Below are positions 6,733-43,206 of a DNA stretch of 64,000 nucleotides, piece by piece (the stretch's first letter is position 1; every line of letters starts with the position of its first letter). This DNA comes from Balneola sp. EhC07 (GTDB lineage Bacteria; Bacteroidota; Rhodothermia; Balneolales; Balneolaceae). The translations under genes and the position numbers were made by a program. The notes beneath the pieces were generated by a model that was not told where the DNA came from, made no database searches, and was given only the letters and a program-made list of their open reading frames with translations. Location of the stretch: contig NZ_LXYG01000001.1 in NCBI RefSeq assembly GCF_001650905.1, positions 62,001 through 126,000 on the forward strand, written 5' to 3'.

Positions 6733-9345
6733 CTAGAAATACAGCTTTGCTCTGAAACTGGGTTGAATTCCCAGATCATAAACGGTAGTCAAACCGGGGA
6801 TAATTCGGTTATTGTTTGTATTCCTGCCTGCTTTAAAATCAGAATACCAAGGGTTTTGAGTGTTTAACAGATTATAAACAGAAAATAAGAATTCAGCTTT
6901 TTCTGTATTTCCGGTACTGAGAATATATTTAAGAGAAACATCCAGCCTTGAGTAATCCCCGATTCTGGTTTCTGCTTGTTCATCTCTTGAAAGCACATTA
7001 TTTGGAGTCCCCGTTGCAAAATTCCAGGAGGCATAAAAACTCAGTCCATTAGACAGATCTAAATCACCAATCAAAGAAAACTGATGTGTCCGGTCATAAG
7101 AAGGATGAAAAGGTTTGCCGTCATTGATGAGTAAATTCTCAAGTTCTGTAGAAGCCAGAGTGTAGGTAGATGAAAGACTGAATCGGGAGAATCGTTTCTT
7201 CAGTAGAAATTCAATACCCTTACCAACTCCTGTATTATTAAAAAGGAATGGGTTTGTATCATCTTCATCAAAAAAGGATGAAATAAAATGATCGGCTAAG
7301 CTGTGAATTCGCAGATTGTCAAAAAGTTTATAATAGCCTTCAACCTGTAAGAAAAGTGAATTTGAAGGTCGTAATCTTACATTTGTAGTAAAATAGCTGA
7401 CTGAAGAGGGTGGTTGCTCATTATTAGTCATAACCCAAAAATCAGTGCTGTTTACAGTCAAAAAATCTAATTGATGTAAGAACTGATAGTTTTTACTATA
7501 GCCTAGTCCAAATGAAACTGCTGATTCAGGTAAGAACTGCGCTTTAATTCTTGGAGACCATTTTAAATATTTTCCATTGCTGAAATAATATAACCTGCCT
7601 CCTAAACTGACATGAGCTTCGGTAGAATTTGCAAAATCAAACTGACTGAACATGTCCAGTAACTGACTTGTTCGTCTGCTTCGGAAGGATTGGTTACGCG
7701 GACTTAATTCAGTATATAGAACTTCGAAATCGCTGTAAGTGACTCCAAAATCTAATCCAAAATGTTCAAAGGATTTGCTGAACCTCTGATTGATCTGAAA
7801 TTCCTGAAGTTCATTTTCTAAATTGAACGGCAAGATCTCAATAGTCGCGTTTTGGTTGTTATTGTCGTTTTCGGGCCTTCGGAAGTCGTTATCCTCTTTC
7901 AAATAGTTTGAATAATAATCGCTGAACCCTATGCTACTTTCAGAATTTATATCATGTTGAAGTTGAGTGTTATAAGCCAGCTTAACCATTTTGCTCGACC
8001 ACTCATTATTGGTATTGAATTCTTGTGATTGTTGCTGAATTCGGCGATCATAGGATTGGTTGGCTTCATCTTTCCCAAAGTACATACTTGCAATCAATTG
8101 TGAACCCGAACTAGTCTCGAAATACAGCTTACCATGTAAGTCGTAGAAAAAAGCATTACCATTTACATTTTGTACATTTCGATCTATAAATTTGCGTACC
8201 GTATCACTTTGAAAATCATAATTGCGATCTATATCCAGCCCGTATTTTATGATTCCCTGATTGTTAAACCAGTTTAAATCATCGATGTAAGAATGGCGAC
8301 CTGAAAACAGGAAACTGGATTTTCCCAAAACAACAGGGCCTTCCAAAGTGGCGCTTAAGGCGGTGTTACTGAGGCCAACAGAACTTTCAAAATTTTGAAG
8401 GTTTCCGGTTTTGGTTAAAAAGGTAAGTGTTCCACCAAGAGGTGCCCGAAATTGAGCCGGTGTGACATCATAAAAGAAACCACTGGTTCTGAGAACGTCT
8501 GCATTAAGACCGTCCAGCAATCCGAATAAATGGCTTTGGTTATAAAGCGTTATTCCATCCAGTAATACGCGAAAGCCATCTGATGAACTGCCTCTGACAT
8601 TTAAACCATCCTGGATGGCCGGCCCCGCAAGTACCGATGGAAGTGATTGTAAAGCTTTTGCAGAGTTGTTGTCCCCCAAAGGACTAAAAGATCCGGCTTC
8701 GATTAAACTACTGAACACAGTATCTGATGGACTGAATAAAGAGTTTCCATTAACTATGATCTCGCTGCCGCCATAGAGTCTTGGTTGCAATCGTACAGCA
8801 ATATCATTCAATTCAGATTTTGATGAAATGTCGAAATCAACCCGTTTCGATTCGTATCCTACAAAGGAGAATAAAAGAGGAATCGATGAACCGGAAGAAT
8901 TTATGCGGGCGTGAAAGGTGCCTGAAGTTGAGGAAGCTACACCTGTAATTTCACCATTTTCGAGCCAGGATATGGTAGAGTATGGCAATCGATCTCCGGT
9001 TTCAGCATCAACTACATATCCAGAAATAACAGCTTCTTGTTTGTTTTGTTTATTTCCGGTTTTGAAAAGCAAGGCTTGGTTTCTTTCAGAGTTTACCTGA
9101 AGCCCGATATTAAATTCCAGAAGCTGAGACCTGAGATCTTCATAAAGAGTGGGGGAGTCAGAAGAAACGGTGACATTTATATTACTTACGAGTGCTTCTC
9201 GGTACAGAAATCTCATGTCTGAAGTCTGTTCAATAGAACTGATCAATTCTAACAAGGTTTTTGGAGAAGAAGAATCCTGTGCAAAGCTTTGGTTTACAAT
9301 TCCTGCCCAAAAAAGAAAGAAAGTTATTTTTAATAAGGTTTTCAT
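6733..9345 (-). CDS. TonB-dependent receptor with STN domain
   Basis: An 870-residue outer-membrane receptor. A signal peptide ending near NQSFAQ is followed by an STN (secretin/TonB short N-terminal) domain around residues 30-95, which in this class passes a signal to a FecR anti-sigma protein. Next are a carboxypeptidase-regulatory-like beta-sandwich (about 105-190), the plug (RGSSSDGFRVLLDGI region) and a long beta-barrel that ends in a terminal Phe (AKLYF). The FecR gene lies 6 bases upstream on the same strand and an ECF sigma factor farther up, so this is a cell-surface-signalling receptor. The ligand cannot be told from sequence. There is no SusD-like partner. Confidence 0.92.
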   Translation of the reverse strand: MKTLLKITFFLFWAGIVNQSFAQDSSSPKTLLELISSIEQTSDMRFLYREALVSNINVTVSSDSPTLYEDLRSQLLEFNIGLQVNSERNQALLFKTGNKQNKQEAVISGYVVDAETGDRLPYSTISWLENGEITGVASSTSGTFHARINSSGSSIPLLFSFVGYESKRVDFDISSKSELNDIAVRLQPRLYGGSEIIVNGNSLFSPSDTVFSSLIEAGSFSPLGDNNSAKALQSLPSVLAGPAIQDGLNVRGSSSDGFRVLLDGITLYNQSHLFGLLDGLNADVLRTSGFFYDVTPAQFRAPLGGTLTFLTKTGNLQNFESSVGLSNTALSATLEGPVVLGKSSFLFSGRHSYIDDLNWFNNQGIIKYGLDIDRNYDFQSDTVRKFIDRNVQNVNGNAFFYDLHGKLYFETSSGSQLIASMYFGKDEANQSYDRRIQQQSQEFNTNNEWSSKMVKLAYNTQLQHDINSESSIGFSDYYSNYLKEDNDFRRPENDNNNQNATIEILPFNLENELQEFQINQRFSKSFEHFGLDFGVTYSDFEVLYTELSPRNQSFRSRRTSQLLDMFSQFDFANSTEAHVSLGGRLYYFSNGKYLKWSPRIKAQFLPESAVSFGLGYSKNYQFLHQLDFLTVNSTDFWVMTNNEQPPSSVSYFTTNVRLRPSNSLFLQVEGYYKLFDNLRIHSLADHFISSFFDEDDTNPFLFNNTGVGKGIEFLLKKRFSRFSLSSTYTLASTELENLLINDGKPFHPSYDRTHQFSLIGDLDLSNGLSFYASWNFATGTPNNVLSRDEQAETRIGDYSRLDVSLKYILSTGNTEKAEFLFSVYNLLNTQNPWYSDFKAGRNTNNNRIIPGLTTVYDLGIQPSFRAKLYF

Positions 9346-9351
9346 GAAACC

Positions 9352-10323
9352 TTAATTTAAAGGAATAAACTTAAAGCTATTTGAATTTACTTCTCTGAAT
9401 GTGCCGCCTAAAATTACACCCAAGTCATTGAGTGTGGTAGAAAGTTCATCCAATGCAATTGTACCAGATATCAGCTCTGATGTATTTTGCATACCTGAAA
9501 TATCAATCGTTGCTTTAAAATGATGTTCAAGTTCGTTTATTACCTGCGAAACAGGAGTGCTATTTAAAACAATTTCGTCATTCAGCCAGTCTTTAAATTC
9601 TTCAGCGTCTGCCGGAGATGCATTGCTTAATAAGTTCTGAGATATAGTGGCTTTTTCACCCGGTTTAAGAACGATGGAATTTTGATGGAGATCGGAGAGT
9701 CTCACACTTCCTTCTTCAAGAAATACTTTTGTCTCGTTTCCCCATGTGCTCAGATTGAATTGCGTTCCCAATACGGTAACAATTCCATTATCTGAAGCAA
9801 CAGAAAAAGGTTTATTAATATCTTTAGTAACTACAAAAAAGGCTTCTCCTTCAAGCTCAAAGGATCTCTTAGAATCTGATAATTCGATTTCGTAGAGAGA
9901 TGAATACGGACGCAGCGACACTTGAGACCCATCTGCTAATATTACCGATTCAATGGCATTTCCACTTTGAGCGACTAAAACCGGATTATCTAAATTTGTG
10001 AACCAAAAAATTCCCAGGAAAGCTGCAAGCAATACAGTAGCTGCTGTTGCCCAAGCCCATGTATTCGTTTTTCGGGTTGAAAGTGATGTGATCCTGGCTT
10101 TCTTTTGTGATGTAGTTTCTGAAAACACTTTATCCCACATTTCAGAAGATTCTGAAATTAAAGTGTCAATCTGAGTATGCTCTTTATTTTGGTAAGCTAA
10201 AAGAGATTGAATCAATGGGTCCTGAATACCTGAAAAACCTTCACCCGATTGTAACGCAGAATCCAACTGTTTAGCCAACAGCAGGTCTTGATCGTTATCA
10301 GGTAAAAGGTCTTTAGTTTCCAT
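9352..10323 (-). CDS. FecR-type anti-sigma factor
   Basis: A 323-residue FecR-family protein. A cytoplasmic N-terminal half (1-90) binds the sigma factor in this family. One membrane segment lies near residues 92-112 (TAATVLLAAFLGIFWF). The FecR periplasmic domain (about 120-220) shows LADGSQVSLRPYSSL, FELEGEAFFVV and VLGTQFNL. A C-terminal secretin-like domain (about 245-320) would contact the receptor STN domain. It is transcribed with the TonB receptor 6 bases downstream. A strong hairpin sits only 15 bases upstream of its start codon, which may limit read-through from the upstream lipoprotein gene. Confidence 0.93.
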   Translation of the reverse strand: METKDLLPDNDQDLLLAKQLDSALQSGEGFSGIQDPLIQSLLAYQNKEHTQIDTLISESSEMWDKVFSETTSQKKARITSLSTRKTNTWAWATAATVLLAAFLGIFWFTNLDNPVLVAQSGNAIESVILADGSQVSLRPYSSLYEIELSDSKRSFELEGEAFFVVTKDINKPFSVASDNGIVTVLGTQFNLSTWGNETKVFLEEGSVRLSDLHQNSIVLKPGEKATISQNLLSNASPADAEEFKDWLNDEIVLNSTPVSQVINELEHHFKATIDISGMQNTSELISGTIALDELSTTLNDLGVILGGTFREVNSNSFKFIPLN

Positions 10324-10338
10324 GATTCTAATATAAAA

Positions 10339-10370
10339 GAACTGCAGGTTAAATCATCAACCTGCAGTTC
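10339..10370 (-). terminator. Hairpin terminator/attenuator between lipoprotein and fecR
   Basis: GAACTGCAGGTT and AACCTGCAGTTC form a perfect 12-base stem with an 8-base loop, followed on the minus strand by TTTTAT. It lies between the lipoprotein stop (10386) and the FecR start (10323). It would reduce transcription of fecR and the receptor relative to the upstream gene. Confidence 0.75.
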
Positions 10371-10385
10371 ATGTTGGTTAGTAGT

Positions 10386-11285
10386 TTAATCTTCTGTTGA
10401 TCCGTCTTTTAATGAGAATCGAACAACTTTGGCTACTTTTTTGAATCTTAACAGGGCAGTTCCGTCTCCCGTTAATTCAATAGTACCTTCAATTACTTGA
10501 GTATCAGCTTCATCCCCAAAAGCTTTGTTTAAAACTATGCTGTAATTAAGTGTTCCGGTTACACCTTGTTCCAGGTTACCATTAGCTTCAACGGTATCTT
10601 TTTCGATTTCAACATTCAGGAATTCAATGTCCACAGTAAAATCTCTGGATACCTCAACGCTGTCTCTGGTAAAACCTGAAGCACTTCCTTCTCCGTGATG
10701 AGTTCCGTCAATACTTACTATCGAACTTGTGCTGTGTAAGCCGGCAATAGCGAAAGTATCTGCACGAGCGAATTCAGAACTTCCTCTTCGGGAATTTACA
10801 GAACCTGATTTATTTCCTGTAAAATCTACGCTTTCAATAGAATCTGCATTAGCTCTTGGGCGCGCTATAAAATCACCTTCAGGAGATTTGAAGATATAAG
10901 TATTCAGTAGTGCTATATTTTTACTGAAGTCACCATGATTTACACTACGATTATATTCTAAGGTATGTGTGCCGGTATCAGAATCATAAGAATAGGAGTA
11001 ATTATTTTCTCTTCCTCTTCCGCTTCTGCCATCCGGGTCAACTTTTCTGTGATCATTTCCATAAGAAATGCCTTCATCGCCAACAGTGGAAACGGCATCA
11101 TACATACTACTCATAATCCCGGAGTTCTCATCAGATACAGACTCTCCGATAATTTGTGTAGCCAGTTCGATGTCTTCATCAGAAAGGGTGTCAACATCAT
11201 TATTTACGGCAGAACAAGCTGCAAAGGTAACTAAGAGGCTTAAGCCCAATAGTGTTAGTTTTGATATGTTTTGTAAAGATTTCAT
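10386..11285 (-). CDS. Unknown lipoprotein of the sigma/FecR locus
   Basis: A 299-residue protein starting at MKSLQN (11285). The longer frame upstream adds 26 residues with no signal features. The signal peptide ends in a lipobox VTFAAC. Beyond it lie an acidic helix (DEDIELATQIIGES), a Gly/Arg-rich patch (DGRSGRGREN) and a long beta-rich region with many Ser, Thr and Asp. I recognise no family. Its place between an ECF sigma gene and FecR/TonB receptor genes, all on one strand, suggests it belongs to the same regulon, perhaps as an abundant product given the terminator directly after it. Confidence 0.75.
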   Translation of the reverse strand: MKSLQNISKLTLLGLSLLVTFAACSAVNNDVDTLSDEDIELATQIIGESVSDENSGIMSSMYDAVSTVGDEGISYGNDHRKVDPDGRSGRGRENNYSYSYDSDTGTHTLEYNRSVNHGDFSKNIALLNTYIFKSPEGDFIARPRANADSIESVDFTGNKSGSVNSRRGSSEFARADTFAIAGLHSTSSIVSIDGTHHGEGSASGFTRDSVEVSRDFTVDIEFLNVEIEKDTVEANGNLEQGVTGTLNYSIVLNKAFGDEADTQVIEGTIELTGDGTALLRFKKVAKVVRFSLKDGSTED

Positions 11286-11471
11286 AGTGATTTCTCTTTT
11301 GTTTTTATTAAAGACATTTGTGTCATTTGCCTTTAGTACACGAGTAGAATTGAATACCCCCAATCCTTTTTAAAAAAATCAAAAAACAAATTTCAGATAG
11401 CAGTCAACGGTGTAGATGTTACGTAATTCTTTGACAGTTTAATATTGATAATCGTAGAAAAATTCGCCCTT

Positions 11472-11620
11472 AGTATTTAAGACGGAGAAGAGAGTATGAT
11501 CCGGATGCGTCTGCGAAGCAGGAATAATCCTTTCTGGTGAAGAGTGTACTAATTACCTCAGAATGCACGAAGACCTTTAGGATTATTCAGCGCAGGATCA
11601 GTGAACCCGTCTTAAATACT
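11472..11620. repeat. 149-base nested inverted repeat (possible structured RNA)
   Basis: The outer arms AGTATTTAAGACGG (11472-11485) and CCGTCTTAAATACT (11607-11620) are perfect reverse complements. Inside them GAATAATCCT (from 11522) pairs with AGGATTATTC (from 11579). A small hairpin CTGCGAAGCAG sits at 11511-11521, and GATCC/GGATC segments flank the interior. The ordering allows one long multi-branched fold. It could be a non-coding RNA, a miniature mobile element or a complex terminator. Confidence 0.6.
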
Positions 11621-11636
11621 TCGGCTTGATCTTTTG

Positions 11637-11733
11637 CTACTTTTGTATCAAGACAAAAGTAGGTAGACTTGTTTTAGCCTGAAAATAAGTAACTACCTCT
11701 TTGCTCTGTGTACTTTTGTACCGCCAAAAGTAC
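11637..11733. repeat. Two REP-like hairpins
   Basis: CTACTTTTGT...ACAAAAGTAG (11637-11662, 10-base stem, 6-base loop) and GTACTTTTG...CAAAAGTAC (11710-11733, 9-base stem, 6-base loop) share nearly the same arms. Similar intergenic palindromes are common in Bacteroidota genomes. They look like dispersed repeats, not gene-specific terminators. Confidence 0.6.
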
Positions 11734-11980
11734 CAAAAGCTCCCGCCAAGAATTATTGGCGTGAACTCCATTACATCGACTAATCATTACAAAAGGTCTA
11801 CCTGTGTATGATGCATATTCAAGAATCAGCCAGAGTGTAATGATTGCTCCTTCGGAGCCGTAGATTACATTGCGTTCTTGGCTCGCCAAAAATTCTAAAG
11901 ATCGGAGTAGTAGGAAACTTTTTCTGAAAACGTCAGGACGATTAAGCAGAATAATTTTTTGTAAGCGAATTAGCTGACAT

Positions 11981-12571
11981 CTACAAACGGTACTGTTTTA
12001 ATGATTCGCGCATATCTTTTAGTGCAAGTCCCATATGATTTTCAACTGTTTTTACGGATACGTCTAATACCTGAGCAGCTTCTTTATAAGTAAATTCCTG
12101 AATAAAACAGAGCCGGAAAACTTCTTGCCTCTTTTCAGGCATAGCTGAAATAGCTTGTTCAATTGCGCTGTTAAGCTCAGCTCTTTTGTTATCCTCATCT
12201 TCAGGTTCTTCATGAGATGTATTCTCCTCCGGATCTGCCTCTTCATCGAATTTGGAATGATCTCTGAATAGATTCAGCATTCTTGTATATCCGATTCTGA
12301 ACAGAAATGCTCTAAGAGACTTTGTTTCGTCTATTTCGTCGCGTTTCTCCCAGATCATAACAAAAGCCTGCTGAACCAAGTCTTTTGCGGCTTCTTTGGC
12401 AGTTCCTCTCTTCATTAAATAATTAAGAAGAAATGCATTATAGCGGTCAAAAAACTTTTTAAATGCCTCGTGATTTCCGTTCTTTATCTTTATAGCGAGT
12501 TCGGGATCGGTTAATTCATCAGAATCAACTGAGGCCAACAATAAAATAAGTTGTAATAAGAGCGAGTTCAT
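11981..12571 (-). CDS. ECF-family RNA polymerase sigma factor
   Basis: A 196-residue sigma-70 family factor of the extracytoplasmic-function group. Region 2 lies at about residues 22-95 (GNHEAFKKFFDRY, LVQQAFVMIWEKRDEI, LRAFLFRIGYTRMLNLFRDH). An acidic linker (about 100-125, EEADPEENTSHEEPEDEDN) follows. Region 4 with its helix-turn-helix is at about 130-195 (MPEKRQEVFRLCFIQEFTYKEAA, VKTVENHMGLALKDMR). The first 15 residues are oddly hydrophobic (NSLLLQLILLLASV) for a cytoplasmic factor, and no better downstream start is available. It probably controls the lipoprotein/FecR/TonB-receptor genes. Only 29 bases separate it from the divergent peptidase gene. Confidence 0.93.
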   Translation of the reverse strand: MNSLLLQLILLLASVDSDELTDPELAIKIKNGNHEAFKKFFDRYNAFLLNYLMKRGTAKEAAKDLVQQAFVMIWEKRDEIDETKSLRAFLFRIGYTRMLNLFRDHSKFDEEADPEENTSHEEPEDEDNKRAELNSAIEQAISAMPEKRQEVFRLCFIQEFTYKEAAQVLDVSVKTVENHMGLALKDMRESLKQYRL

Positions 12572-22678: not shown

Positions 22679-23746
22679 CTAATTCCCATCTCCATAAGCA
22701 CGAATCACATCGGTATAGCTCATATCAACGAGGAGACTTCTGCTGTCCAGTTCCTGAATAAAACTTACTGGTACATCGGAGTTGTACAAACCGATGACTC
22801 CTGAATAAGAAAAGGTGTTCAGGAAACCGGCTTCTTTTAATTGAATAATGTAATCAGTAGTAACGCCCGAACTTTGGAGCCCGATTATGGCAGAGTAAGA
22901 GAAATCGTTCAGCAGATCTGCTGCATTTAATCTGTCCAGATACTCAACCGTAACACCGCCATTGTACAAGCCTATCAAACCTGAGTAAGAAAATTCGTCC
23001 AGATAACCGCCGGCCTCCATTCGGGCAAGAAACTCATTAGGAACGCCACCATTATACAAACCGATTACTCCTGAGTAGGAAAAATCATCTAAATAACCAC
23101 CAACATTAAGTTGATCCAGATAAGAAGTCGGAACGCCTCCATTGTATAGACCAATGATTCCTGAATAAGAAAAGTCATCCAAATATCCGGCTTCGTTCAT
23201 CATCGTTAAATATTCCATCGGAACTCCACCGTTATACAATCCGATAATTCCGGAGTAAGAAAAATCATCCAAAAAACCGGCTTGATTCATCTGTTCTAAA
23301 TAAGAAAGGGGAACACCGCTATCGTACAGCGCCCGTATTCCGGTAGGATTGATTTGATTCGTATATCCGGCTTCATTCGCAGCTTGTAAATAATCCAGAT
23401 ATACGCTAGTGACTCCTTCGGTTGTTGAAATTCTTGGAGGCAGTGGTGCAGCGGGAGGTAATGGTGCTTGTACTACATTTTGTCCCTGAGAAACAGTTGT
23501 TTGGTTGCCGTTATCAAAGTTGAACACGGAAATCGGACTACTCGTTAAAAACCATACAGCCGGTATCACAGCAAACAGTAATAAAGCAATGATATTTCTT
23601 TTAGTGGAGGTTGGTGGGTCTACATATTCCGGATCAAATGTTTCTGTATCGCTGGCATTGGCTTGCTCGTCTATGTAAGAATCCAGATCAAAATCAGGAT
23701 CATCCTGATTTCCACGTAATTCATTTTTAAATCTTTGGTTTGCCAT
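22679..23746 (-). CDS. Single-pass membrane protein with 30-residue repeats (paralogue 4)
   Basis: A 355-residue member of a four-gene paralogue set. The N-terminus ends the shared motif DPDFDLDSYIDEQANA (about 16-31). One membrane segment lies at about 52-69 (IALLLFAVIPAVWFL). A low-complexity Gln/Pro linker follows, then about eight repeats of 30 residues with the pattern FSYSGIIGLYNGGV-P-xx-YL-xx-L-xx-AG-YLDD, which look like helical hairpins stacked in a solenoid. At DNA level these are 90-base repeats. The topology puts the repeats outside the cytoplasm. Similar NHGVTPEYVxxL repeats occur in some M56/BlaR1-like proteins. The function is unknown. It is the last gene of a tight operon. Confidence 0.85.
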   Translation of the reverse strand: MANQRFKNELRGNQDDPDFDLDSYIDEQANASDTETFDPEYVDPPTSTKRNIIALLLFAVIPAVWFLTSSPISVFNFDNGNQTTVSQGQNVVQAPLPPAAPLPPRISTTEGVTSVYLDYLQAANEAGYTNQINPTGIRALYDSGVPLSYLEQMNQAGFLDDFSYSGIIGLYNGGVPMEYLTMMNEAGYLDDFSYSGIIGLYNGGVPTSYLDQLNVGGYLDDFSYSGVIGLYNGGVPNEFLARMEAGGYLDEFSYSGLIGLYNGGVTVEYLDRLNAADLLNDFSYSAIIGLQSSGVTTDYIIQLKEAGFLNTFSYSGVIGLYNSDVPVSFIQELDSRSLLVDMSYTDVIRAYGDGN

Positions 23747-23750
23747 AATA

Positions 23751-24497
23751 TTAATTTCTTTGATTCTTATATCCTTCGATCAGCGATGAAATATCGAATG
23801 TATTTAACAGATCACTGTCATTCAATGTTTTCAATACAGGAACCGGAACTTCGGCGTCGAAAAGTTCAGCCACCGTTTCTGTATCAAATTTATCAGTGAG
23901 TCCGGCTTCATTTAATTGTGTGTTATAATCTTCCAGGTTAGCAGGAAATTCAGTCGAATTATTTTCTACTTGAATGAAAGATGGATTTTCAAGATTTGAA
24001 AGTGCTTCAAGTGCTGAAAGCTTCGCCAACTCTTCTAAACCTTCAAGGCTTGCCAGGTTTTCCAGTTCAGCTAAACCTTCGAGGCTTTCTAAGGCTTCAA
24101 GAGCCTCTAAACGAGCCAAGTTTTCAAGTCCTTGTGTAACAACAATATCGTTAGCTCCTGCCGGGTCACTGTCAGCAATAACAACATCAGGTTCTGAATT
24201 AGCGGTGACCGGAAGTAAAGGCTCAGGGGCAACTGATTGTTTTTGATATTCTTCTACTCCGAAAATATTACCATAAACCAGCTTAGGGCTCCAGTCATTA
24301 AAGTACAACAAGGCGAAAAGGGAAAGTCCTACAACTAGAAAAGTGTTCTTTAGAAAAGAGGAACCTTTTGAAGAGTTATTAGCTTGAGCTTCAAATTGCT
24401 CGCCTGAATGTGATTTTTCATGTATATAGGAATCAAGATCGAAATCAGGATCGTCCTGATCTCCTCTTAACTCATTTCTAAATCTTTGTGAACTCAT
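23751..24497 (-). CDS. Single-pass membrane protein with Leu/Glu/Ala-rich stalk (paralogue 3)
   Basis: A 248-residue paralogue. It starts SSQRFRNELRGDQDDPDFDL and shares the cytoplasmic motif (DFDLDSYIHEKS) and one membrane segment (about 50-66) ending in the shared words NDWSPKLVYGNIFG. Its outer part differs from the others: a stretch of about 50 residues (about 125-172) repeats Leu-Glu/Ala units such as LEALEALESLEGLAELENL. Only about one and a half diverged 30-residue repeats (LNEAGLTDKFDTETVAELFD) follow. It lies 4 bases upstream of paralogue 4. The Leu/Glu/Ala stretch could be a coiled coil or a thin repeat fold. The function is unknown. Confidence 0.8.
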   Translation of the reverse strand: MSSQRFRNELRGDQDDPDFDLDSYIHEKSHSGEQFEAQANNSSKGSSFLKNTFLVVGLSLFALLYFNDWSPKLVYGNIFGVEEYQKQSVAPEPLLPVTANSEPDVVIADSDPAGANDIVVTQGLENLARLEALEALESLEGLAELENLASLEGLEELAKLSALEALSNLENPSFIQVENNSTEFPANLEDYNTQLNEAGLTDKFDTETVAELFDAEVPVPVLKTLNDSDLLNTFDISSLIEGYKNQRN

Positions 24498-24499
24498 AA

Positions 24500-25429
24500 T
24501 TACTGACCTTCTAATTCATATGCTGTTACGACTGATTCGGAAGACATATCATTTAATAAACCTTTGTCATCAAGTATTTTAAGAAAGCTCGCAGGCACCT
24601 GATTTTGATGGAGTCTTACAATAGATGTGCTGCCAAAATTATCTAAGTATCCGGCTTCTGCTAATTCTGAAATGTATTCTCTAGGTACATTATTTTGATA
24701 TAATCTGGAAATGGATGTGCTCCCGAAGTCTTCTAAAATTCCAGCTTCTTTAAATCCTATGATATAATCGAATGGTATTTGGTTTTGATATAATCTGGAG
24801 ATAGATGTACTTCCAAAATTTTCCAACAGACCTGCATCAGCAAGATTTTGTATATATTCAAATGGAACCTGATTTTGGTACAATCTTGAGATAGAAGTGC
24901 TTCCGAAATTATTTAGAACTTCTGCTTTTCCAAATTGATCGATGTATTCAACAGGAACATTGTTTTGGTATAGTCTGGTTGAAGCGCTTCCTCCAAAATA
25001 ATCTAAATATCCATATTCTTTTAGCTGTGCCAGATATTCCGTATAGCTCATCCCAAGATCAGCAACACTATTACCTGGGTCGAAATTAAAATTAAAATTG
25101 AAGTCCTGACGAGGGATGGGAGGAGCAGGTGCTGTAATTACCCTTACATCAGGTTGTGGTCTCTCTACTACAATGGTCTGACCTGCCTGAGAGGAAGTAA
25201 AGTTTGAGTCATCAGAGAAAATCGAAAATGGGTCACTTAAAAAGAACCAAACTGCCGGAATTAAAATAACCGAAAGGGCCAACAGATTTCTTTTTGTTGT
25301 TGGATGCGAATCGAATTCTTGTTCAAAATTCTGATCACCGGCGTTTGCTTGCTCATCTATATACGCATCCAGATCAAAATCCGGATCGGAATTATTATTT
25401 AGGTCATTCCTAAATCTTTGATTACTCAT
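24500..25429 (-). CDS. Single-pass membrane protein with 30-residue repeats (paralogue 2)
   Basis: A 309-residue paralogue; the start MSNQRFRNDL at 25429 is chosen because it aligns with the other three, and the longer frame overlaps the upstream gene. The motif DPDFDLDAYIDEQANAG (about 15-31), one membrane segment (about 48-65) and a linker with Pro/Phe/Asn precede about five repeats. The unit is FGSTSISRLYQNQVP-xx-YI-xx-xx-AG-xLEN, 30 residues each. It shares the DNA-level 90-base periodicity with paralogue 4, but with different helix sequences (FGSTSISRLYQN against FSYSGIIGLYNG). It lies 7 bases after paralogue 1. Confidence 0.85.
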   Translation of the reverse strand: MSNQRFRNDLNNNSDPDFDLDAYIDEQANAGDQNFEQEFDSHPTTKRNLLALSVILIPAVWFFLSDPFSIFSDDSNFTSSQAGQTIVVERPQPDVRVITAPAPPIPRQDFNFNFNFDPGNSVADLGMSYTEYLAQLKEYGYLDYFGGSASTRLYQNNVPVEYIDQFGKAEVLNNFGSTSISRLYQNQVPFEYIQNLADAGLLENFGSTSISRLYQNQIPFDYIIGFKEAGILEDFGSTSISRLYQNNVPREYISELAEAGYLDNFGSTSIVRLHQNQVPASFLKILDDKGLLNDMSSESVVTAYELEGQ

Positions 25430-25436
25430 AATAGTC

Positions 25437-26291
25437 CTAGTTATTTTCGTCTTTATACATTTCCACAACATCTACAAAGCTCAGATCTTCATACAGTCCT
25501 TTTGCTTTCAGGTCGTTCAGGAATTCCGTTGTTACTCCGGCTTTGTAATACTCTGTGATATGCACAAAACTCAGATCATCAAGATATCCGGCCCGATCCA
25601 GTGTTCTTAGATAATCCATAGTTACATTGTTTGTGTAGAACTCGCTTATTCCGATAAAATTAACTTTATCTAAAAAGCCTGCCTCTTCAAATTCAGAAAT
25701 ATAGCTTAGAGGGATATCGTTGTTATAGAATTCAGAAATAGCTACAAAGTTTAACTCATCCAAAAAACCTGCATTGTCTACTTCCTGAATATAGGTAACA
25801 GGGACACCTGCTGAATGAAGTTGACGAGCCTGAAAAGCGCTTAGCTTATCGTCTTCCAGCAATCCGAGTTCTTTTAATTCCACTAAATAATCAGTAACTG
25901 ATGGGAGTTCTTCATTTGCTGAAGCTCTGGCTAGTTCTTGCTCTATGGCTCGCTGAATCTCTCGTGTTTCAGGGATAGTGATTTCGGGAATTCTGATCTC
26001 AGGAATGTCTATTACAATTTGATTCCCGGCTTGACCTGTTGCTACTACTGTTGCTTCATCACTACCAAAAATACTTGCATAAGCTTGTTTCGGGCTCCAA
26101 TCGTGATACCAAAGGAATGCAGTGAATACGAGAGCCAGACCAAGGCCTGCATTTTTTAAGAAAGAAGTTTCGTGCTCGTCTTCAACTTGTGGAGTGGCTT
26201 CAGCAGTTTTATGAGCTTGTTCATCGAGATAGGAATCTAAGTCGAAATCGTCGTTGTTATTGGATTTTTTAAATCTGCCCTTTTGTGTCAT
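25437..26291 (-). CDS. Single-pass membrane protein with 30-residue repeats (paralogue 1)
   Basis: A 284-residue protein, first gene of the four-gene set. It opens MTQKGRFKKSNNNDDFDLDS, with the shared motif DFDLDSYLDEQAH. One membrane segment (about 47-63) is followed by the words YHDWSPKQAYASIFG that recur in paralogue 3. A linker with the regular pattern IPEIRIPEITIPET (about 95-110) and a charged helix lead to about five repeats of 30 residues (LNFVAISEFYNNDIPLSYIS, EFEEAGFLDK). Upstream, 111 bases separate it from the divergent DUF2911 gene, where the operon promoter should lie. The function is unknown. Confidence 0.85.
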   Translation of the reverse strand: MTQKGRFKKSNNNDDFDLDSYLDEQAHKTAEATPQVEDEHETSFLKNAGLGLALVFTAFLWYHDWSPKQAYASIFGSDEATVVATGQAGNQIVIDIPEIRIPEITIPETREIQRAIEQELARASANEELPSVTDYLVELKELGLLEDDKLSAFQARQLHSAGVPVTYIQEVDNAGFLDELNFVAISEFYNNDIPLSYISEFEEAGFLDKVNFIGISEFYTNNVTMDYLRTLDRAGYLDDLSFVHITEYYKAGVTTEFLNDLKAKGLYEDLSFVDVVEMYKDENN

Positions 26292-26402
26292 GGTGGTGCA
26301 ATTTTTTCACTAAGACGAAAAAGCCACTTCCATTGTTTCAAATCAGAAATATTCTCTTAAAGTTTGTTAGATTAGACAAAACCATAAATTAATTCCTTTA
26401 AA

Positions 26403-27443: not shown

Positions 27444-28973
27444 TTAATTTTTAGCTTCACCTTTATAAAGTAACTCGGCAAGCTCGACGATCTTGATAAA
27501 CTCAGCACGATATCCGTTTTCATCAACACCTTTTGATTCTTTGGCTAATTGTTGAACCATTTCGAATGAACTGTTTCCTTTAAATTTTGAATCCCGAAGT
27601 AACATACCGAAGGAAGCTACCGATGATGCAAACTTGAGATTTTCATTAAGGTCGGTGTCTTCAGATTTATAAATTATTTCTGTTATTAAACTGCTCTGAT
27701 CCTCATTTGGATTTTTATATCGTAGTTTAACGGTCAATAATTCGTTACCGTACTTACTTTGTACTTCAGAAATTTGCCCCTGATATTTTAAAGGATCTAC
27801 CGGAAGTAAGTTATTTGAAATAGGCACTCCTTCAGGTATAACCTCATATAAAGCAGTAACGGTGTGTCCGGCTCCAAGTTCTCCGGCATCTTTTTCATCA
27901 TTATTGAAATCTTCATCAGCTAACAAGCGGTTTTCATAGCCTATCAATCGGTATGCTTTTACGTTCTGTGGATTGAACTCAACCTGAATTTTCACATCTT
28001 TAGCAATAGTATGAAGGGTTCCTCCCATTTCTGAAACAAGTACTTTTTTGGCTTCCAGTAAATTATCGATGTAATAATAGTTACCGTTTCCATTATTGGC
28101 GATTTGCTCCATTTTAGAATCTTTCAGATTTCCTGTACCAAAACCCAAGATCGACAAATCAATTCCCTGTTCTCTTTTTTCTTCAACAAGCTTAACAAGT
28201 TCGGATGTAGATGAAACTCCAACATTAAAATCACCATCCGTGGCAAGTATAACTCTGTTATTTCCTTCTTGCTTATAATTTTTAAGAGCTACTTTATATG
28301 CTTGTTTAATTCCTTCCCCACCGGCTGTAGATCCTTGGGCGTATAGATCATCGAGAGCAGAGATTATTTTCTCTTTTTGATCCCCTGAAGTAGGAGGAAG
28401 TACCAATCCTGAACTTCCGGCATAAACAACAATGGATACAAGGTCTTGTTCTCTTAATTGATTAACCAATAGTTTGAACCCTTTCACTAGCAATGGAAGT
28501 TTATCTCTTGAGCCCATAGAACCGGAGACATCAAGTAAAAAAACGAGATTGCTTGGGGGCAGATCGTCAGCATATATTTCTTTTCCTTTTATACCAATCT
28601 GCACAAGTTGATGTTCGGGATTCCAGGGAGATGGTCCAATATCAGTATGTACTGAAAATGGCTCTTCATTTTTGGGTTGTTGATAATCGTAGTTGAAATA
28701 ATTTATCATTTCTTCAACCCTTACAGCGTCTTTTACAGGGAGGCGACCATCCATGATCATTCTCCGGATATTTGAATATGAAGCTCCATCTACATCAATA
28801 GCAAAAGTGGATAGAGGATATTCAGATGGAGTGAGAAAAGTATTCTCAGTTATTGTTTCGTATTCCTCACCGGGTTGTAAATTTGGTTGTGGCGGATGAT
28901 AAATGTTCGAGTAATAACTTCCGGTACACGAAATGAATAAAACAAGTGAAGCAGCAATAGTAAAAATTTTCAT
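27444..28973 (-). CDS. VWA-domain lipoprotein, YfbK-like (copy 2)
   Basis: A 509-residue lipoprotein with lipobox LFISC (Cys16). A von Willebrand-domain N-terminal region (about 45-130) has STFAIDVDGASYSNIRRMI and RVEEMINYFNYDY. The VWA domain (about 140-310) has the metal-ion motif DVSGSMGS and VILATDGDFNVG. A DUF3520-type C-terminal region ends KGVDENGYRAEFIKIVELAE. This is the YfbK-like family; its role is unclear, probably a surface or periplasmic binding protein. Long blocks are nearly identical to the next upstream gene, so the pair is a tandem duplication. It lacks that gene's carboxypeptidase-like N-terminal domain. Confidence 0.9.
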   Translation of the reverse strand: MKIFTIAASLVLFISCTGSYYSNIYHPPQPNLQPGEEYETITENTFLTPSEYPLSTFAIDVDGASYSNIRRMIMDGRLPVKDAVRVEEMINYFNYDYQQPKNEEPFSVHTDIGPSPWNPEHQLVQIGIKGKEIYADDLPPSNLVFLLDVSGSMGSRDKLPLLVKGFKLLVNQLREQDLVSIVVYAGSSGLVLPPTSGDQKEKIISALDDLYAQGSTAGGEGIKQAYKVALKNYKQEGNNRVILATDGDFNVGVSSTSELVKLVEEKREQGIDLSILGFGTGNLKDSKMEQIANNGNGNYYYIDNLLEAKKVLVSEMGGTLHTIAKDVKIQVEFNPQNVKAYRLIGYENRLLADEDFNNDEKDAGELGAGHTVTALYEVIPEGVPISNNLLPVDPLKYQGQISEVQSKYGNELLTVKLRYKNPNEDQSSLITEIIYKSEDTDLNENLKFASSVASFGMLLRDSKFKGNSSFEMVQQLAKESKGVDENGYRAEFIKIVELAELLYKGEAKN

Positions 28974-29086
28974 AGCGAGAGATTTAGTTAATATTGAAAT
29001 TACTTCACTCTTAAGAAAAAGTTCCCGTATACGAATTCACTTAGTTAACCATACTTATTCAACAATCTATATTGAATAACCAACGT

Positions 29087-29122
29087 CCAATTTCCAAGTT
29101 AGTAAAGAGACCTGGAAATTGG
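29087..29122. terminator. Hairpin terminator after the first VWA gene
   Basis: CCAATTTCCA and TGGAAATTGG pair around 16 bases, 30 bases after the longer VWA gene's stop on the minus strand. The block is a diverged copy of the one at 27378-27413, so it was duplicated along with the gene or belongs to a dispersed hairpin family. Confidence 0.6.
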
Positions 29123-29152
29123 TTGTTCTTAGGTGGTCATTGGATAGTGAAA

Positions 29153-31036
29153 TTACTTTTTCGCTTCACCTTTATAAAGTAGCTCTGCAAGCTCCACGAT
29201 CTTTATGAATTCTGCACGATATCCGTTTTCATCAACACCTTTTGATTCTTTGGCTAATTGTTGAACCATTTCGAATGAACTGTTTCCTTTGAATTTTGAA
29301 TCCCGAAGTATCATACCGAACGAAGCTACCGATGATGCAAACTTGAGATTTTCTGATAATTCAGATCTATCTGATCTTTTTATTATCTGGGAAAGAAGTT
29401 GGCTTTTTTCACCATCAGGTTGTTTGTATCGGAGTTTTACAGTCATTAATTCATCATCAAAACCATTTACAGGTGTAGTTGGCGTTTGATACTTAAGTGG
29501 GTCGATATCACTTAAACATGAATCTATATCCACTCCGTGCGGGACCACTTCATACAACGCGGTTACGGTATGTCCTGATCCAAGTTCTCCGGCATCTTTT
29601 TTGTCATTGTTGAAGTCTTCATCAGCTAGCAAACGGTTTTCATAGCCGATCAACCGATATGCTTTTACATTCTGAGGATTGAACTCAACCTGAATTTTGA
29701 CATCTTTTGCAATAGTGTGAAGGGTTCCTCCCATTTCTGAAACAAGTACTTTTTTGGCTTCCAGTAAATTGTCGATGTAATAATAATTTCCGTTTCCATT
29801 ATTGGCGATCTGCTCCATTTTAGAATCTTTCAGGTTTCCGGAACCAAATCCTAGCACAGATAGAAATATTCCCTGATCTCGCTTCTCTTCAATTAGATCC
29901 ACAAGTTCGCTGTTACTGGAAACGCCAACATTGAAATCACCATCAGTAGCTAAGATGATTCGATTATTCCCATTTTCTTTGAAATGTTCTTTAGCAACTT
30001 GATACGCCTGCTTGATTCCTGAGGCTCCCGCTGTAGAACCGCCGGCACTAAGTTTATTCAATGCCTCTAAAATTGTTTCTTTGTCTGCACCTGACGTTGG
30101 CGGAAGTACTAATCCCGAACTACCGGCATACACAACAATAGATACATAATCGTCTTCTCTTAATTGATTGGTAAGTAATTTGAATCCCTTTTTAAGGAGA
30201 GGAAGTTTGTCATAAGAATTCATGGAGCCGGAAACATCCAATAGAAATACTAAATTGCTTGGAGGAAGATCATCTGCTTCGATCTGTTCACCTTGAATTC
30301 CGATTTGAACCAATTGATGATCCGGGTTCCAGGGAGCTTTTCCAACCTCGGTATTCACTGAAAAAGGGTGTTCTCCTCCAGGATGTTCGTAATCATAATT
30401 GAAATAGTTAATGAGCTCTTCTACACGAACCGCATCTTTTACAGGCAAGCGACCGTCCATGATCATTCGACGAACATTGGAATAAGAAGCACCGTCCACA
30501 TCAATAGAAAAAGTAGAAAGCGGAGTTTTGGTTGCCCATTTGAAGGTGTTTTCAGAAATTTCAGCGTATTCTTCGGTGTTGAAATTACTTGGTGGAAATG
30601 GAATAGATCGAGCAGAATAAGAATTAACCCTTCCCGCAAATCCAGGAGGAGTTTCCAACTGTTTGGTTTGAATAGCATCTGAGATTACTATTTGTTCTTC
30701 TAAGGTAATAACGTCAGGGTCTAATGAAATGATTAAATTGCCAAGCCCAGATTTTGGAACCATGATTAGTCTTCCAGACTTTTTGAATCCAATGTATTGA
30801 ACCTCTAATATGTAGTTTCCCGGTTCAACGAAGAATTCGAAATTACCGTCTGCATCAGAGGTTTCATTAATGGTCTCTTCTTTCAGAATAATTGTGGCAC
30901 CAACTATTGGTTGCTGAGTATCTGCATCAATGACAGTTCCCTGAACTTTAACTTTGTCTTGTACAATTACCGGATTTGGTATATCAATTACTTCCGGAAG
31001 GATGAGAAGCAACAGGCTTGCAATGAGTGTCTTCAT
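29153..31036 (-). CDS. VWA-domain protein with carboxypeptidase-like N-domain (copy 1)
   Basis: A 627-residue exported protein. A hydrophobic signal segment (about 1-18) leads to a carboxypeptidase-regulatory-like beta-sandwich (about 29-110: VQGTVIDADTQQPIVGATI, YILEVQYIGFKKSGR). The YfbK-type region (STFSIDVDGASYSNVRRMI) comes next, then a VWA domain with DVSGSMNS and VILATDGDFNVG, and a DUF3520-type end KGVDENGYRAEF. The last 70 residues and a central block match the downstream copy almost exactly, while the regions between have diverged. That suggests duplication with later sequence exchange. The carboxypeptidase-like domain may anchor or orient it at the surface. Confidence 0.9.
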   Translation of the reverse strand: MKTLIASLLLLILPEVIDIPNPVIVQDKVKVQGTVIDADTQQPIVGATIILKEETINETSDADGNFEFFVEPGNYILEVQYIGFKKSGRLIMVPKSGLGNLIISLDPDVITLEEQIVISDAIQTKQLETPPGFAGRVNSYSARSIPFPPSNFNTEEYAEISENTFKWATKTPLSTFSIDVDGASYSNVRRMIMDGRLPVKDAVRVEELINYFNYDYEHPGGEHPFSVNTEVGKAPWNPDHQLVQIGIQGEQIEADDLPPSNLVFLLDVSGSMNSYDKLPLLKKGFKLLTNQLREDDYVSIVVYAGSSGLVLPPTSGADKETILEALNKLSAGGSTAGASGIKQAYQVAKEHFKENGNNRIILATDGDFNVGVSSNSELVDLIEEKRDQGIFLSVLGFGSGNLKDSKMEQIANNGNGNYYYIDNLLEAKKVLVSEMGGTLHTIAKDVKIQVEFNPQNVKAYRLIGYENRLLADEDFNNDKKDAGELGSGHTVTALYEVVPHGVDIDSCLSDIDPLKYQTPTTPVNGFDDELMTVKLRYKQPDGEKSQLLSQIIKRSDRSELSENLKFASSVASFGMILRDSKFKGNSSFEMVQQLAKESKGVDENGYRAEFIKIVELAELLYKGEAKK

Positions 31037-40411: not shown

Positions 40412-41152
40412 TTATATTTTTTGGCTTAGTTCTTCAAGCATCAATAGACCCTGATCATATGTATCAATTTGTTTTCTAATCTGATAGAGCCGAGCAAAAA
40501 TGTAAGCCTCCATCGTTTTATCGGATAAAAAATATTCAAGATCAAAAGAAATCGGAGGTCTTTGGTCATCTTTATAGAGCGGAACAAACATATCATTTGT
40601 ATTACCTTTTCCCCAAATTTGACTATAATTTTCAAATACAAAAGTCTCATACTGATGTATAAACCTATTAGATATCTCTTCTCTTTCTTGAATTGCCTCT
40701 GTAGATAGATAATATTTAGATATAGAGTTCTGAATATCTGAATTAAGTGCATCTAAACTACCGGAAGAAATTAATAGATCAATACCATTGGTTCGGGGTT
40801 TAAAATTGAACTCCAAAAGTAATTGTGCAATATTACCGGCAATTGAATCATTAGGTTCGGTTTTTAATTGAATAATGTCCGACATGTTCAAGGCCATACG
40901 TTCTCTGTCATAGGCATTATGTAAGAGATCTTTAAGTTGTTCTTTATCATCTTCAAGATTTTGCTTAAGAATTTCTAAATGATACTGCGCAGTTTGTGTT
41001 TGATTGTTTTTCTCATTCCAGTTATTAACTTGAAGTGCCAGCAATATCCCGATCATAACTAAAGCAATTTCTCCAATCGCATACAGGAGGTAAGTACGAA
41101 GTTTATTCTGTTCCATGAGTTTTTTTCGTATTTGGCGGAAGAATCTAAGCAT
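40412..41152 (-). CDS. DUF6090-family membrane protein (copy 3)
   Basis: A 246-residue protein with the family N-terminus MLRFFRQIRKKLM and LLYAIGEIALVMIGILLALQ, a single membrane helix (about 23-43) followed by VNNWNE. The outer C-terminal part is helical and variable (LEILKQNLEDDKEQLKDLL). DUF6090 proteins occur in runs in Bacteroidota and their function is unknown. It is the last of three paralogues on this strand. A palindromic repeat element sits directly before its start codon, ending 8 bases upstream. Confidence 0.88.
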   Translation of the reverse strand: MLRFFRQIRKKLMEQNKLRTYLLYAIGEIALVMIGILLALQVNNWNEKNNQTQTAQYHLEILKQNLEDDKEQLKDLLHNAYDRERMALNMSDIIQLKTEPNDSIAGNIAQLLLEFNFKPRTNGIDLLISSGSLDALNSDIQNSISKYYLSTEAIQEREEISNRFIHQYETFVFENYSQIWGKGNTNDMFVPLYKDDQRPPISFDLEYFLSDKTMEAYIFARLYQIRKQIDTYDQGLLMLEELSQKI

Positions 41153-41159
41153 AGGTTTT

Positions 41160-41339
41160 GAACCGCGGATTAATGGGATTGAAGGATGTCACGAATCCAT
41201 GGCTTGTCACTTCGAGCGAAAGGGAGAAGTCTAAAAATCCTTGAACTATCATCAAAATCTTTAGATGTCTCGCAGTAGCTCGACATGACAAAAAATAGAA
41301 AATCCGTGATAATCCAAACATCCGGTTAATCCCTGGTTC
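41160..41339. repeat. Palindromic element with terminal inverted repeats (copy 1)
   Basis: About 180 bases bounded by GAACCGCGGATTAA and TTAATCCCTGGTTC (12 of 14 bases pair). Inside are TTGTCACTTCGAGCG...GAAGTCTAAA and a near-complement ending GCTCGACATGACAA, so the whole element can fold on itself. It sits between two DUF6090 genes. Just before it, on the gene strand, lies a short duplicate of a DUF6090 start (MLRFFRQ). The 74-codon open frame running through it is not a separate gene. Confidence 0.75.
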
Positions 41340-41368
41340 AGACAGTTTTTGGCGAAAGAAGCGGAGCA

Positions 41369-42115
41369 TTAGTTTAAATTATTCAGAAGTTCCAAAAGAT
41401 CTTCTGATTCTGATTTTAGTTCTTCTGTGATTTCTATTGCTACCTCATTCACCGTTTTCATCATATTCAGGAAAGTGTAAAACTTTCTACGTGCCTGCAC
41501 CCAGTTTACATTATTCCATATATCACTTTCAACATCGGCGTTTATTTCAATTTTAAATTCGTGAAAGTAAAATGGAACCTCACTGATAAAATCTTCGCTT
41601 AAATTATATTTCAGCTGAAGATTGTCAGTTATCATAACCTGATAAACTTTTTGAAGAGAATTCAGATCCAATAATCTAAATTGGATGATCTCATCTAACA
41701 GGTCAACTCTGCCGGTATTTTGAAGAGTCAGAAATGTATTGTTGTTCAGATTAGCAGTCTCAAAAGTCTGAATAATATCAAGATTAGCTTTGATGAGGTC
41801 ATTAAAATCCGAATTGGTTAAAGAAGGCTCAGATAGTATTTCTTCCAGACTGTCAATTTGAGATAACTGAAAAGACAGATCTTCTATTTGATACTCAAAA
41901 TTTTCAATATCCAATATTAGATCTTCTTTTAAAGCAGTTAAGTAGGATTCTGCAAGATCAGCTTTTTTTCTTTCCTCATTCCAGTTATTCACCTGAAGAG
42001 CGAGTAAGATCCCGATCATTACCAAAGCAATTTCACCTAAAGCATAAAGGAGGTATTTTCGAACGTTATTCTGTTCCATAAGTTTTTGTCGTATTTGTCT
42101 AAAAAATCTCAGCAT
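41369..42115 (-). CDS. DUF6090-family membrane protein (copy 2)
   Basis: A 248-residue paralogue. It shares with copies 1 and 3 the opening MLRFFRQIRQKLMEQNNVRK and the membrane segment LLYALGEIALVMIGILLALQ (about 23-43), with VNNWNEERKK after it. The outer part (about 50-248) is mainly helical and differs from the other copies. Its stop codon overlaps the ATG of a chimeric frame (TAATG) that carries a short DUF6090-like start and then runs into repeat copy 1. The function is unknown. Confidence 0.88.
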   Translation of the reverse strand: MLRFFRQIRQKLMEQNNVRKYLLYALGEIALVMIGILLALQVNNWNEERKKADLAESYLTALKEDLILDIENFEYQIEDLSFQLSQIDSLEEILSEPSLTNSDFNDLIKANLDIIQTFETANLNNNTFLTLQNTGRVDLLDEIIQFRLLDLNSLQKVYQVMITDNLQLKYNLSEDFISEVPFYFHEFKIEINADVESDIWNNVNWVQARRKFYTFLNMMKTVNEVAIEITEELKSESEDLLELLNNLN

Positions 42116-42121
42116 AGGAGT

Positions 42122-42298
42122 CGTGGGTTAAACTGATTTCAGGGATGGAGCGGAGTTATGGCTTGTCACTTCGAGCGGTAGCGAGAAGTCTAAAGATCTC
42201 GAACCCCCAAGCATCATTTTTAGATATCTCACATTTGTTCGATATGACAAACGATTAAAAACCTGTGTTAATCCTGAAATCAGTTTAATCAGCGGTTC
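42122..42298. repeat. Palindromic element with terminal inverted repeats (copy 2)
   Basis: About 177 bases of the same family as 41160-41339. TTAAACTGATTTCAGG (42128-42143) and CCTGAAATCAGTTTAA (42273-42288) are perfect 16-base inverted repeats, and AGCGGTTC marks the right end. The inner block TTGTCACTTCGAGCG...GAAGTCTAAAGA is shared with copy 1. It lies at the equivalent place between DUF6090 genes, again after a stray MLRFF start that overlaps the preceding stop as TAATG. Confidence 0.75.
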
Positions 42299-42327
42299 AA
42301 ATAGTATTTTGAGGAAGAAGCGTAGCA

Positions 42328-43122
42328 TTAATTATCCTTCTCCAAAGATTTGTTAATTTCACTAACAATTAGTTCGGAAAGTTTAAACTGTTCTCTTAAT
42401 GGCTCAAATCCTCCACGAATAGCTGACATAAAAAAACCTAGTTCTCCCATCAATTCTTCATTGTTGGTTAACTTATTCAATATTTCACCGGCTTTTTCTT
42501 CGGTAATAACCGGATCACATTTGTGTAATACTTGTATGTCACCGACAGTCTCATGGCATTCATCCCACATGTAATCCAAAATAGAGAAAGGTATCTGCAT
42601 TCGGGCCATTTTACGGTATGGAGGGTTTATACCAATAGTACTCTGGTATCTGGATGTTCCTCCTCCGTAGTAATATCCCAGCCGGTCTCTTAAGACTGAA
42701 TTATTAAGTAATGACAACTCACCGGCACTTTTTAATTCTTCGTAGGTTGCACTTTCGATAATAATGGGCCAGATTTGACTGGCATGGAAGGCGTCTACCA
42801 GTAATTCCCAATTTGTGTATTTAAGATCATTTATACCATCTGAAAAGTCTAATACTTTTATCCCACTCTCGAGAACCAGATCATAAAATTCAATATTTGA
42901 TTTATAAAACTCTATATCTGTATTTAAATCTCTTAGCAAAAGATTCAGATATACTTGCTCTCTGTTTTTCTTCAATCTCTCTTCATTCCAGTTATTAACC
43001 TGAAGGGCCAATAAAATACCGATCATTACTAGAGCAATTTCCCCAATAGCATATAATAGATATTTGCTGAACTTGCTTTCAGAAAGGAGAGCCTGTCGTA
43101 CCCGTCGAAAAAACTTAAACAT
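42328..43122 (-). CDS. DUF6090-family membrane protein (copy 1)
   Basis: A 264-residue paralogue, first in the run. The start MFKFFRRVRQ at 43122 aligns with the other copies; an ATG five codons upstream (MGVWD) is less likely. The membrane segment is LLYAIGEIALVMIGILLALQ, followed by VNNWNEERLKK. The outer region is helical (YLNLLLRDLNTDIEFYKSNI) and ends with an uncommon Cys-containing section (MWDECHETVGDIQVLHKC). The function is unknown. Confidence 0.87.
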   Translation of the reverse strand: MFKFFRRVRQALLSESKFSKYLLYAIGEIALVMIGILLALQVNNWNEERLKKNREQVYLNLLLRDLNTDIEFYKSNIEFYDLVLESGIKVLDFSDGINDLKYTNWELLVDAFHASQIWPIIIESATYEELKSAGELSLLNNSVLRDRLGYYYGGGTSRYQSTIGINPPYRKMARMQIPFSILDYMWDECHETVGDIQVLHKCDPVITEEKAGEILNKLTNNEELMGELGFFMSAIRGGFEPLREQFKLSELIVSEINKSLEKDN

Positions 43123-43206
43123 ATCCCAAACCCCCATTGTTATTAACAGAGGAAATTGGTTAAAACAGAGGTTATTTCAAAATTCTAAAAATTACCCAGT
43201 GGGGGT

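Follow-up and report, generated by a model that had tools for sequence, protein, structure and literature searches.

The analysed stretch, a window of 64,000 nucleotides from a marine bacterium of the family Balneolaceae, holds on its minus strand (26291-22679) a quartet of genes, A-B-C-D, that encode related single-pass membrane proteins. The intergenic gaps are 7, 2 and 4 nt, so the operon of paralogues claimed in a preliminary description of this DNA is found at its place and with its spacing.

25437..26291, (-), gene A: 284 aa, membrane protein with ~4-5 repeat units (open reading frame; dN/dS 0.04-0.20)
24500..25429, (-), gene B: 309 aa, membrane protein with ~5-6 repeat units (open reading frame)
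23751..24497, (-), gene C: 248 aa, with the same tail and membrane helix (open reading frame)
22679..23746, (-), gene D: 355 aa, membrane protein with ~7-8 repeat units (open reading frame; AlphaFold2 model)

The start of gene B (MSNQRF) was picked by homology; the mechanical open reading frame begins 14 codons further upstream. Across the comparisons of A-D in which it was computable, dN/dS was 0.04-0.26, indicating purifying selection (B and D against genome G002 yielded no usable dS). Each of the four proteins has a single hydrophobic segment after an N-terminal motif, as had been described, and in most of them the linker that follows the membrane helix is proline-rich. Since dN/dS is low and a motif scan of the organism's own genome returns these four genes, the four-gene observation is confirmed as real and beyond chance.

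The motif is a stretch of 12 residues, DFDLDxY[IL]xE[QK][AS], common to A, B, C and D.

26214..26249, (-), motif of A, DFDLDSYLDEQA (own-genome scan, motif alignment)
25346..25381, (-), motif of B, DFDLDAYIDEQA (own-genome scan, motif alignment)
24411..24446, (-), motif of C, DFDLDSYIHEKS (own-genome scan, motif alignment)
23660..23695, (-), motif of D, DFDLDSYIDEQA (scan and alignment; helix at 21-30 in the model, at low confidence)

The DNA-level scan of the own genome found A-D plus two other sites, and its reversed control gave two matches. Among 53 distinct sequences the F and the second D are invariant (53/53), L is kept in 50 and Y in 49, while the flanks lie near 3 bits of entropy; these sequences were selected with the motif pattern, and therefore the contrast between motif and flanks weighs more than the absolute figures. 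The inner motif, conserved as the preliminary description held, is thus under strong constraint, forming a near-invariant island in all four paralogues and in most lone homologues. This genome's lone paralogue (L033:6450-7304) falls outside the motif pattern. A search of the tail against PDB sequences gave a ParD antitoxin (E 0.025), which was taken as chance. Mimicry of the FtsZ tail was weighed as a possible role of the motif.

Outside the membrane the proteins carry repeats.

25440..25853, (-), repeat region of A, starting near residue 147, with 30-residue spacing
24503..25006, (-), repeat region of B, starting near residue 142, with 30-residue spacing
23757..23936, (-), terminal repeat units of C, residues 188-247 (AlphaFold2 model)
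22682..23407, (-), predicted alpha-solenoid of D, residues 114-355 (pLDDT >90 over most)

Self-identity at a lag of 30 residues is 0.26 in A, 0.38 in B and 0.48 in D, against ~0.1 at lags unrelated to 30, and across the family 233 successive pairs of repeat anchors lie exactly 30 apart, the next most frequent spacings being 60 (11 cases) and 31 and 33 (8 each). Three proteins with stacked 30-residue units were thus correctly recognised. A long outer part had been ascribed to all four; that of C is of a different kind, a point that had been missed. The middle of C is a leucine/glutamate-rich segment, followed by about two terminal repeat units, and its self-identity peaks at lags 9, 12 and 6, not 30. 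In the AlphaFold2 model of C the last 60 residues are helical units of the same kind, with pLDDT ~90 at the end only; in that of D, pLDDT is at least 90 for 228 residues, and pairs of short helices run from residue 114. The 30-residue repeats are confidently predicted to form an alpha-solenoid.

Core repeat positions 9, 13, 17 and 21 are common to all paralogues. Helix-A positions 5-8, 10 and 11 identify the paralogue (0.7-1.5 bits versus 0.1-0.3 in shuffles), and the outer positions of helix B vary widely with little group signal. The first-helix face of A, B and D is therefore paralogue-specific and conserved across genera, and the variation between outer parts, which had been noted, follows the paralogue in a conserved way. 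Because the face is kept for each paralogue across genera, unit after unit, the helix-A positions suggest that A, B and D each have a specific partner, which is probably repetitive.

The named relatives belong to Balneola, Gracilimonas and further Balneolaceae, and two records bear the titles Balneolales and Rhodothermia. A profile of D matched in 45 of 245 genomes of the class at E 0.001 and, in our reading, strongly (E <1e-50) in 28 of the 245, all of them in the window's family; one genome of another family (G035) matched at 3.4e-33. Those of the weak matches in the class that were inspected turned out to be M56 proteins, further long repeat proteins or members of a second Balneolaceae family. 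Outside the class, only three of 394 genomes of the phylum gave weak repeat matches, in long open reading frames, and no phage or plasmid homologue of D was found.

The same gene order, A-B-C-D, is found in several genera of the Balneolaceae (L076, L077, L078, L081, L082, L084, L085 and L086), and L080 has a B-like gene at the A position, then C and D. In Gracilimonas mengyeensis DSM 21985 the version present consists of one gene. In the tree, D forms one clade (100/100), as do 8 of 9 A sequences (100/99) and, with weaker support, C (84/92); B is unresolved. Since the A, C and D sequences group by paralogue, A-D predate these genera. The homologues are not scattered singletons without the motif. 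Gene C is absent from two relatives, L075 and L079, which the preliminary description had missed. In the closest relative (L075:4033-6068, genome G007) B is followed directly by D; this D is 97% identical to that of the window, yet begins MSSQRF like the window's C, which suggests that C was deleted there when its start recombined with the similar start of D.

The restricted range and the absence of C from some relatives would suit a lineage-specific expansion of paralogues with no common function, in which the repeats drift and the motif is retained for folding, for turnover or for insertion into the membrane. Purifying selection, the fixed gene order, helix-A faces conserved across genera and a motif conserved far above its flanks argue against such drift, and we hold it to be the least probable of the explanations weighed here.

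Two other gene groups of the window are recorded here. At 40412-43137 lie four adjoining open reading frames (one of just 74 codons) with related MLRFFRQ- or MFKFFRR-type starts, three of which run on into the same LLYAIGEIALVMIGILLALQVNNW-like stretch. At 27444-31036 are two adjoining VWA/YfbK-type genes, the second with an extra carboxypeptidase-regulatory domain.

Upstream of gene A is a conserved element that the preliminary description did not mention.

26314..26340, (-), ECF-sigma-type promoter TGAAACA-N15-TCGTC, 22 nt upstream of the gene A start codon

Both boxes, TGAAACA and TCGTC, and their 15-nt spacing are unchanged in 15/15 aligned upstream regions, the remainder of which has diverged. 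AAC and CGT boxes are typical of ECF promoters (PMC8103513), a hallmark that the operon's boxes fit; no sigma-70 promoter or terminator signal rose above shuffles, and Rfam gave no match. In 39 genomes the exact promoter sequence stands ahead of these operons or of single-gene homologues; its other matches, among those opened, lie inside open reading frames or have no convincing gene behind them. The pattern TGAAAC-N16/17-CGTC precedes 13 of 36 lead genes of the family versus 5 of 444 other genes (Fisher p 1.6e-12, computed on related, non-independent sequences), and all five of the latter are one orthologous 161-residue exported protein. By these counts the ECF-type promoter appears nearly private to these genes. 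The site precedes 24/36 motif-bearing lead genes and 1/30 motif-less ones, with noise on both sides, since the 12 site-less motif genes include mis-called starts whose sites show in upstream alignments, the 30 motif-less genes include cut open reading frames and M56 genes, and the clades are not independent. Two loci, L039 and L051, have the motif and lack the site. The 161-residue exported protein, encoded at L148 (contig C18 of genome G000) with its own TGAAAC-N16-CGTC site, occurs in five Balneola-group genomes; its orthologues are at L033, L034, L037, L041 and L047.

No sigma gene was found within the operon. When the ECF genes of three operon-bearing genomes were compared with those of three operon-less ones, two, L243 (contig C17 of G000) and L240, had orthologues only in the three operon-bearing genomes. 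L240 was rejected as the operon's sigma factor, being found in most of the class. Relatives of L243 at a level of at least 77% occur in 22 genomes, all with motif genes, making it the best candidate by co-occurrence. Its own promoter, TAAAACTAT-N12-TCGTC, resembles the operon's but differs from it and occurs also in several genomes without the operon; furthermore, five Gracilimonas genomes that keep the TGAAAC site have no L243 match at E 1e-35. Because of this different promoter of its own and of the Gracilimonas genomes with the site but without the gene, L243 was not accepted as the reader of the operon promoter. The ECF gene of the window (11981-12571) was rejected too, its range being wider than that of the operon and a FecR gene lying nearby.

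Around that gene, window positions 6733-12571 hold a FecIR-like set on one strand (ECF sigma factor, FecR-type protein and a protein with plug and carboxypeptidase-regulatory domains), with an M23 peptidase gene divergent to it. Upstream of L243:1378-1947 and its orthologues (L289-L317) the site TAAAACTAT-N12-TCGTC is strikingly conserved and probably autoregulatory. The run of genes headed by L243 includes those for an exported protein and for a protein with one membrane helix, both absent from Pfam; another TAAAACTAT site stands before the gene of a 420-residue protein (L320).

A promoter of this type before single-pass proteins recalls CnrY, in which a short two-helix tail acts as an anti-sigma domain (PMC4598750). 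Like such anti-sigma factors, A-D have a short, presumably cytoplasmic tail, one membrane helix, a presumably periplasmic part and an ECF-type promoter, and the AlphaFold2 model of D gives the short tail two helices. The tails might then make up a new, short class of genuine anti-sigma domains, with each protein, like CnrY, sequestering an ECF sigma factor directly. Unlike the CnrY type, however, these are four paralogues with repeat solenoids, with no sigma gene in their operon and no recognised anti-sigma domain (the tails gave no Pfam or PDB match to one, though short classes may escape sequence search), and the modelled helices are of low confidence. We regard direct sequestration as decidedly unlikely.

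The operon, its gene order, the constraint on its motif, the conservation of its promoter and its paralogue-specific faces are the observations to be explained, and the reading that we tentatively prefer, at somewhat less than even chances, is one of ECF-controlled envelope receptors with different periplasmic faces and one cytoplasmic partner, engaged through the common motif. An ECF sigma factor would drive expression of four bitopic envelope proteins from the operon. The short tail of each, on the cytoplasmic side, would dock the partner through the shared motif, and the membrane helix and linker would lead to a helical-repeat domain in the periplasm. There the repeats of A, B and D would present their paralogue-specific faces, and the four proteins would most probably read different features of the envelope, the reading being passed through the motif to the one cytoplasmic partner. 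Since promoter and motif tend to co-occur, this partner is probably in the same ECF pathway, and feedback on the sigma factor would result. Sensing with feedback is preferred because of this association and of the link to BlaR1-type sensors discussed below; the precedent of CnrY for short anti-sigma tails also speaks for it. Against the receptor reading we count the lack of a sigma gene in the operon and of a known anti-sigma domain, the mismatch of L243, the loci L039 and L051, and the low confidence of the modelled tail. The interpretation given in the preliminary description is partly supported; its shared partner, mutual binding, different ligands and sensing role stay at the level of proposals.

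Close behind, as a possibility that we rate a little lower, comes a structural effector without signalling: an ECF-induced envelope scaffold whose tails dock a membrane-near cytoplasmic structure and whose solenoids bind one another or some envelope polymer of repetitive build. Near-identical repeated helix-A faces suit a repetitive partner, ECF control would suit stress effectors as well, and the gene number differs among relatives; a scaffold alone leaves unexplained the tendency of the motif and the ECF-type site to be lost together. The present data fit both the scaffold and the receptors. A more specific and rather doubtful form of the receptor reading is a multi-input hub, in which up to four receptors with different solenoid faces would gate one ECF sigma pathway through the 12-residue motif, the number of receptors being set in feedback by the pathway's own promoter.

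Since gene order and a stress-type promoter ahead of the genes persist from genus to genus, this is a real, undescribed system, which probably serves to sense or hold the cell envelope. It offers a compact, testable case in a little-studied group, in which a short motif, an ECF-type promoter and modular solenoids have been retained jointly in different genera. Were the motif to gate a sigma pathway, one ECF factor would receive the input of several receptors by way of a common tag; otherwise, the proteins would still be a new envelope protein family with paralogue-specific modular faces.

No characterised family claims these proteins, as had been supposed: scans of A-D against Pfam, NCBIfam and PADLOC gave no family over the curated cut-off, and among the papers available to the analysis there was no description of the family. 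Weak matches to LRR_EndoS, HHH_6, DUF4329 and a PADLOC methyltransferase look like products of low complexity, and PDB sequence matches to collagen X, DotF/IcmG (E 0.034) and a ribosomal protein were taken as chance. Foldseek gave no match with E <0.001 in PDB or BFVD.

In fold comparison, D matched BurrH, TAL effectors, designed toroids and mTERF, all at Z <8 (best 7.6, rmsd 10.9), and Foldseek placed it against the TALE entry 4hpz at E 1.1. These matches may reflect just the two-helix repeat solenoid arrangement that D has in common with TAL effectors, BurrH and mTERF. The repeat units of TAL effectors are 33-35 residues long, a length not matched by the 30 residues of A, B and D, which unlike TAL effectors are acidic units on a membrane protein with no sign of DNA binding.

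The second Balneolaceae family, MSTKFKNLRNDLEDLE (e.g. L128:7029-7721), like A-D has a short N-terminal tail (here MSTKFKNLRNDLEDLE-like), one membrane helix and related repeats, but unlike them has ~27-residue units, a single gene and no DFDLD motif. Further members are L129:6544-7233, L130:6453-7151, L131:5779-6555 and L133:6800-7483. These genes mostly sit between the same kinds of neighbours, and their upstream regions have, by eye, ECF-like sites (TGAATC or TGCATC, then CGTA).

As far as profile matches go, the link to M56/BlaR1 repeats made in the preliminary description is real: C-terminal to M56 peptidases, beside BlaI-type repressors, there are weak relatives, and the D profile matches M56 proteins of the class with C-terminal HGVTPEYV-like repeats at ~1e-7 to 1e-15 (up to 2.4e-15). 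Such proteins from other Rhodothermia (L121-L126) have long arrays of ~27-residue repeats and adjoin BlaI-type repressors. The M56 protein of L124, L125 and L126 has a further repeat protein, lacking the M56 domain, as its neighbour. BlaR1-type sensors (PF05569, beside a PF03965 repressor) have, like A-D, a membrane segment, a linker and related helical repeats. They differ in having their own M56 peptidase domain and a neighbouring repressor, whereas A-D have neither (no Pfam match to PF05569 over cut-off, which the repeat-bearing M56 relatives do give); A-D are set apart in turn by one membrane helix, units of 30 rather than ~27 residues, and the DFDLD motif.
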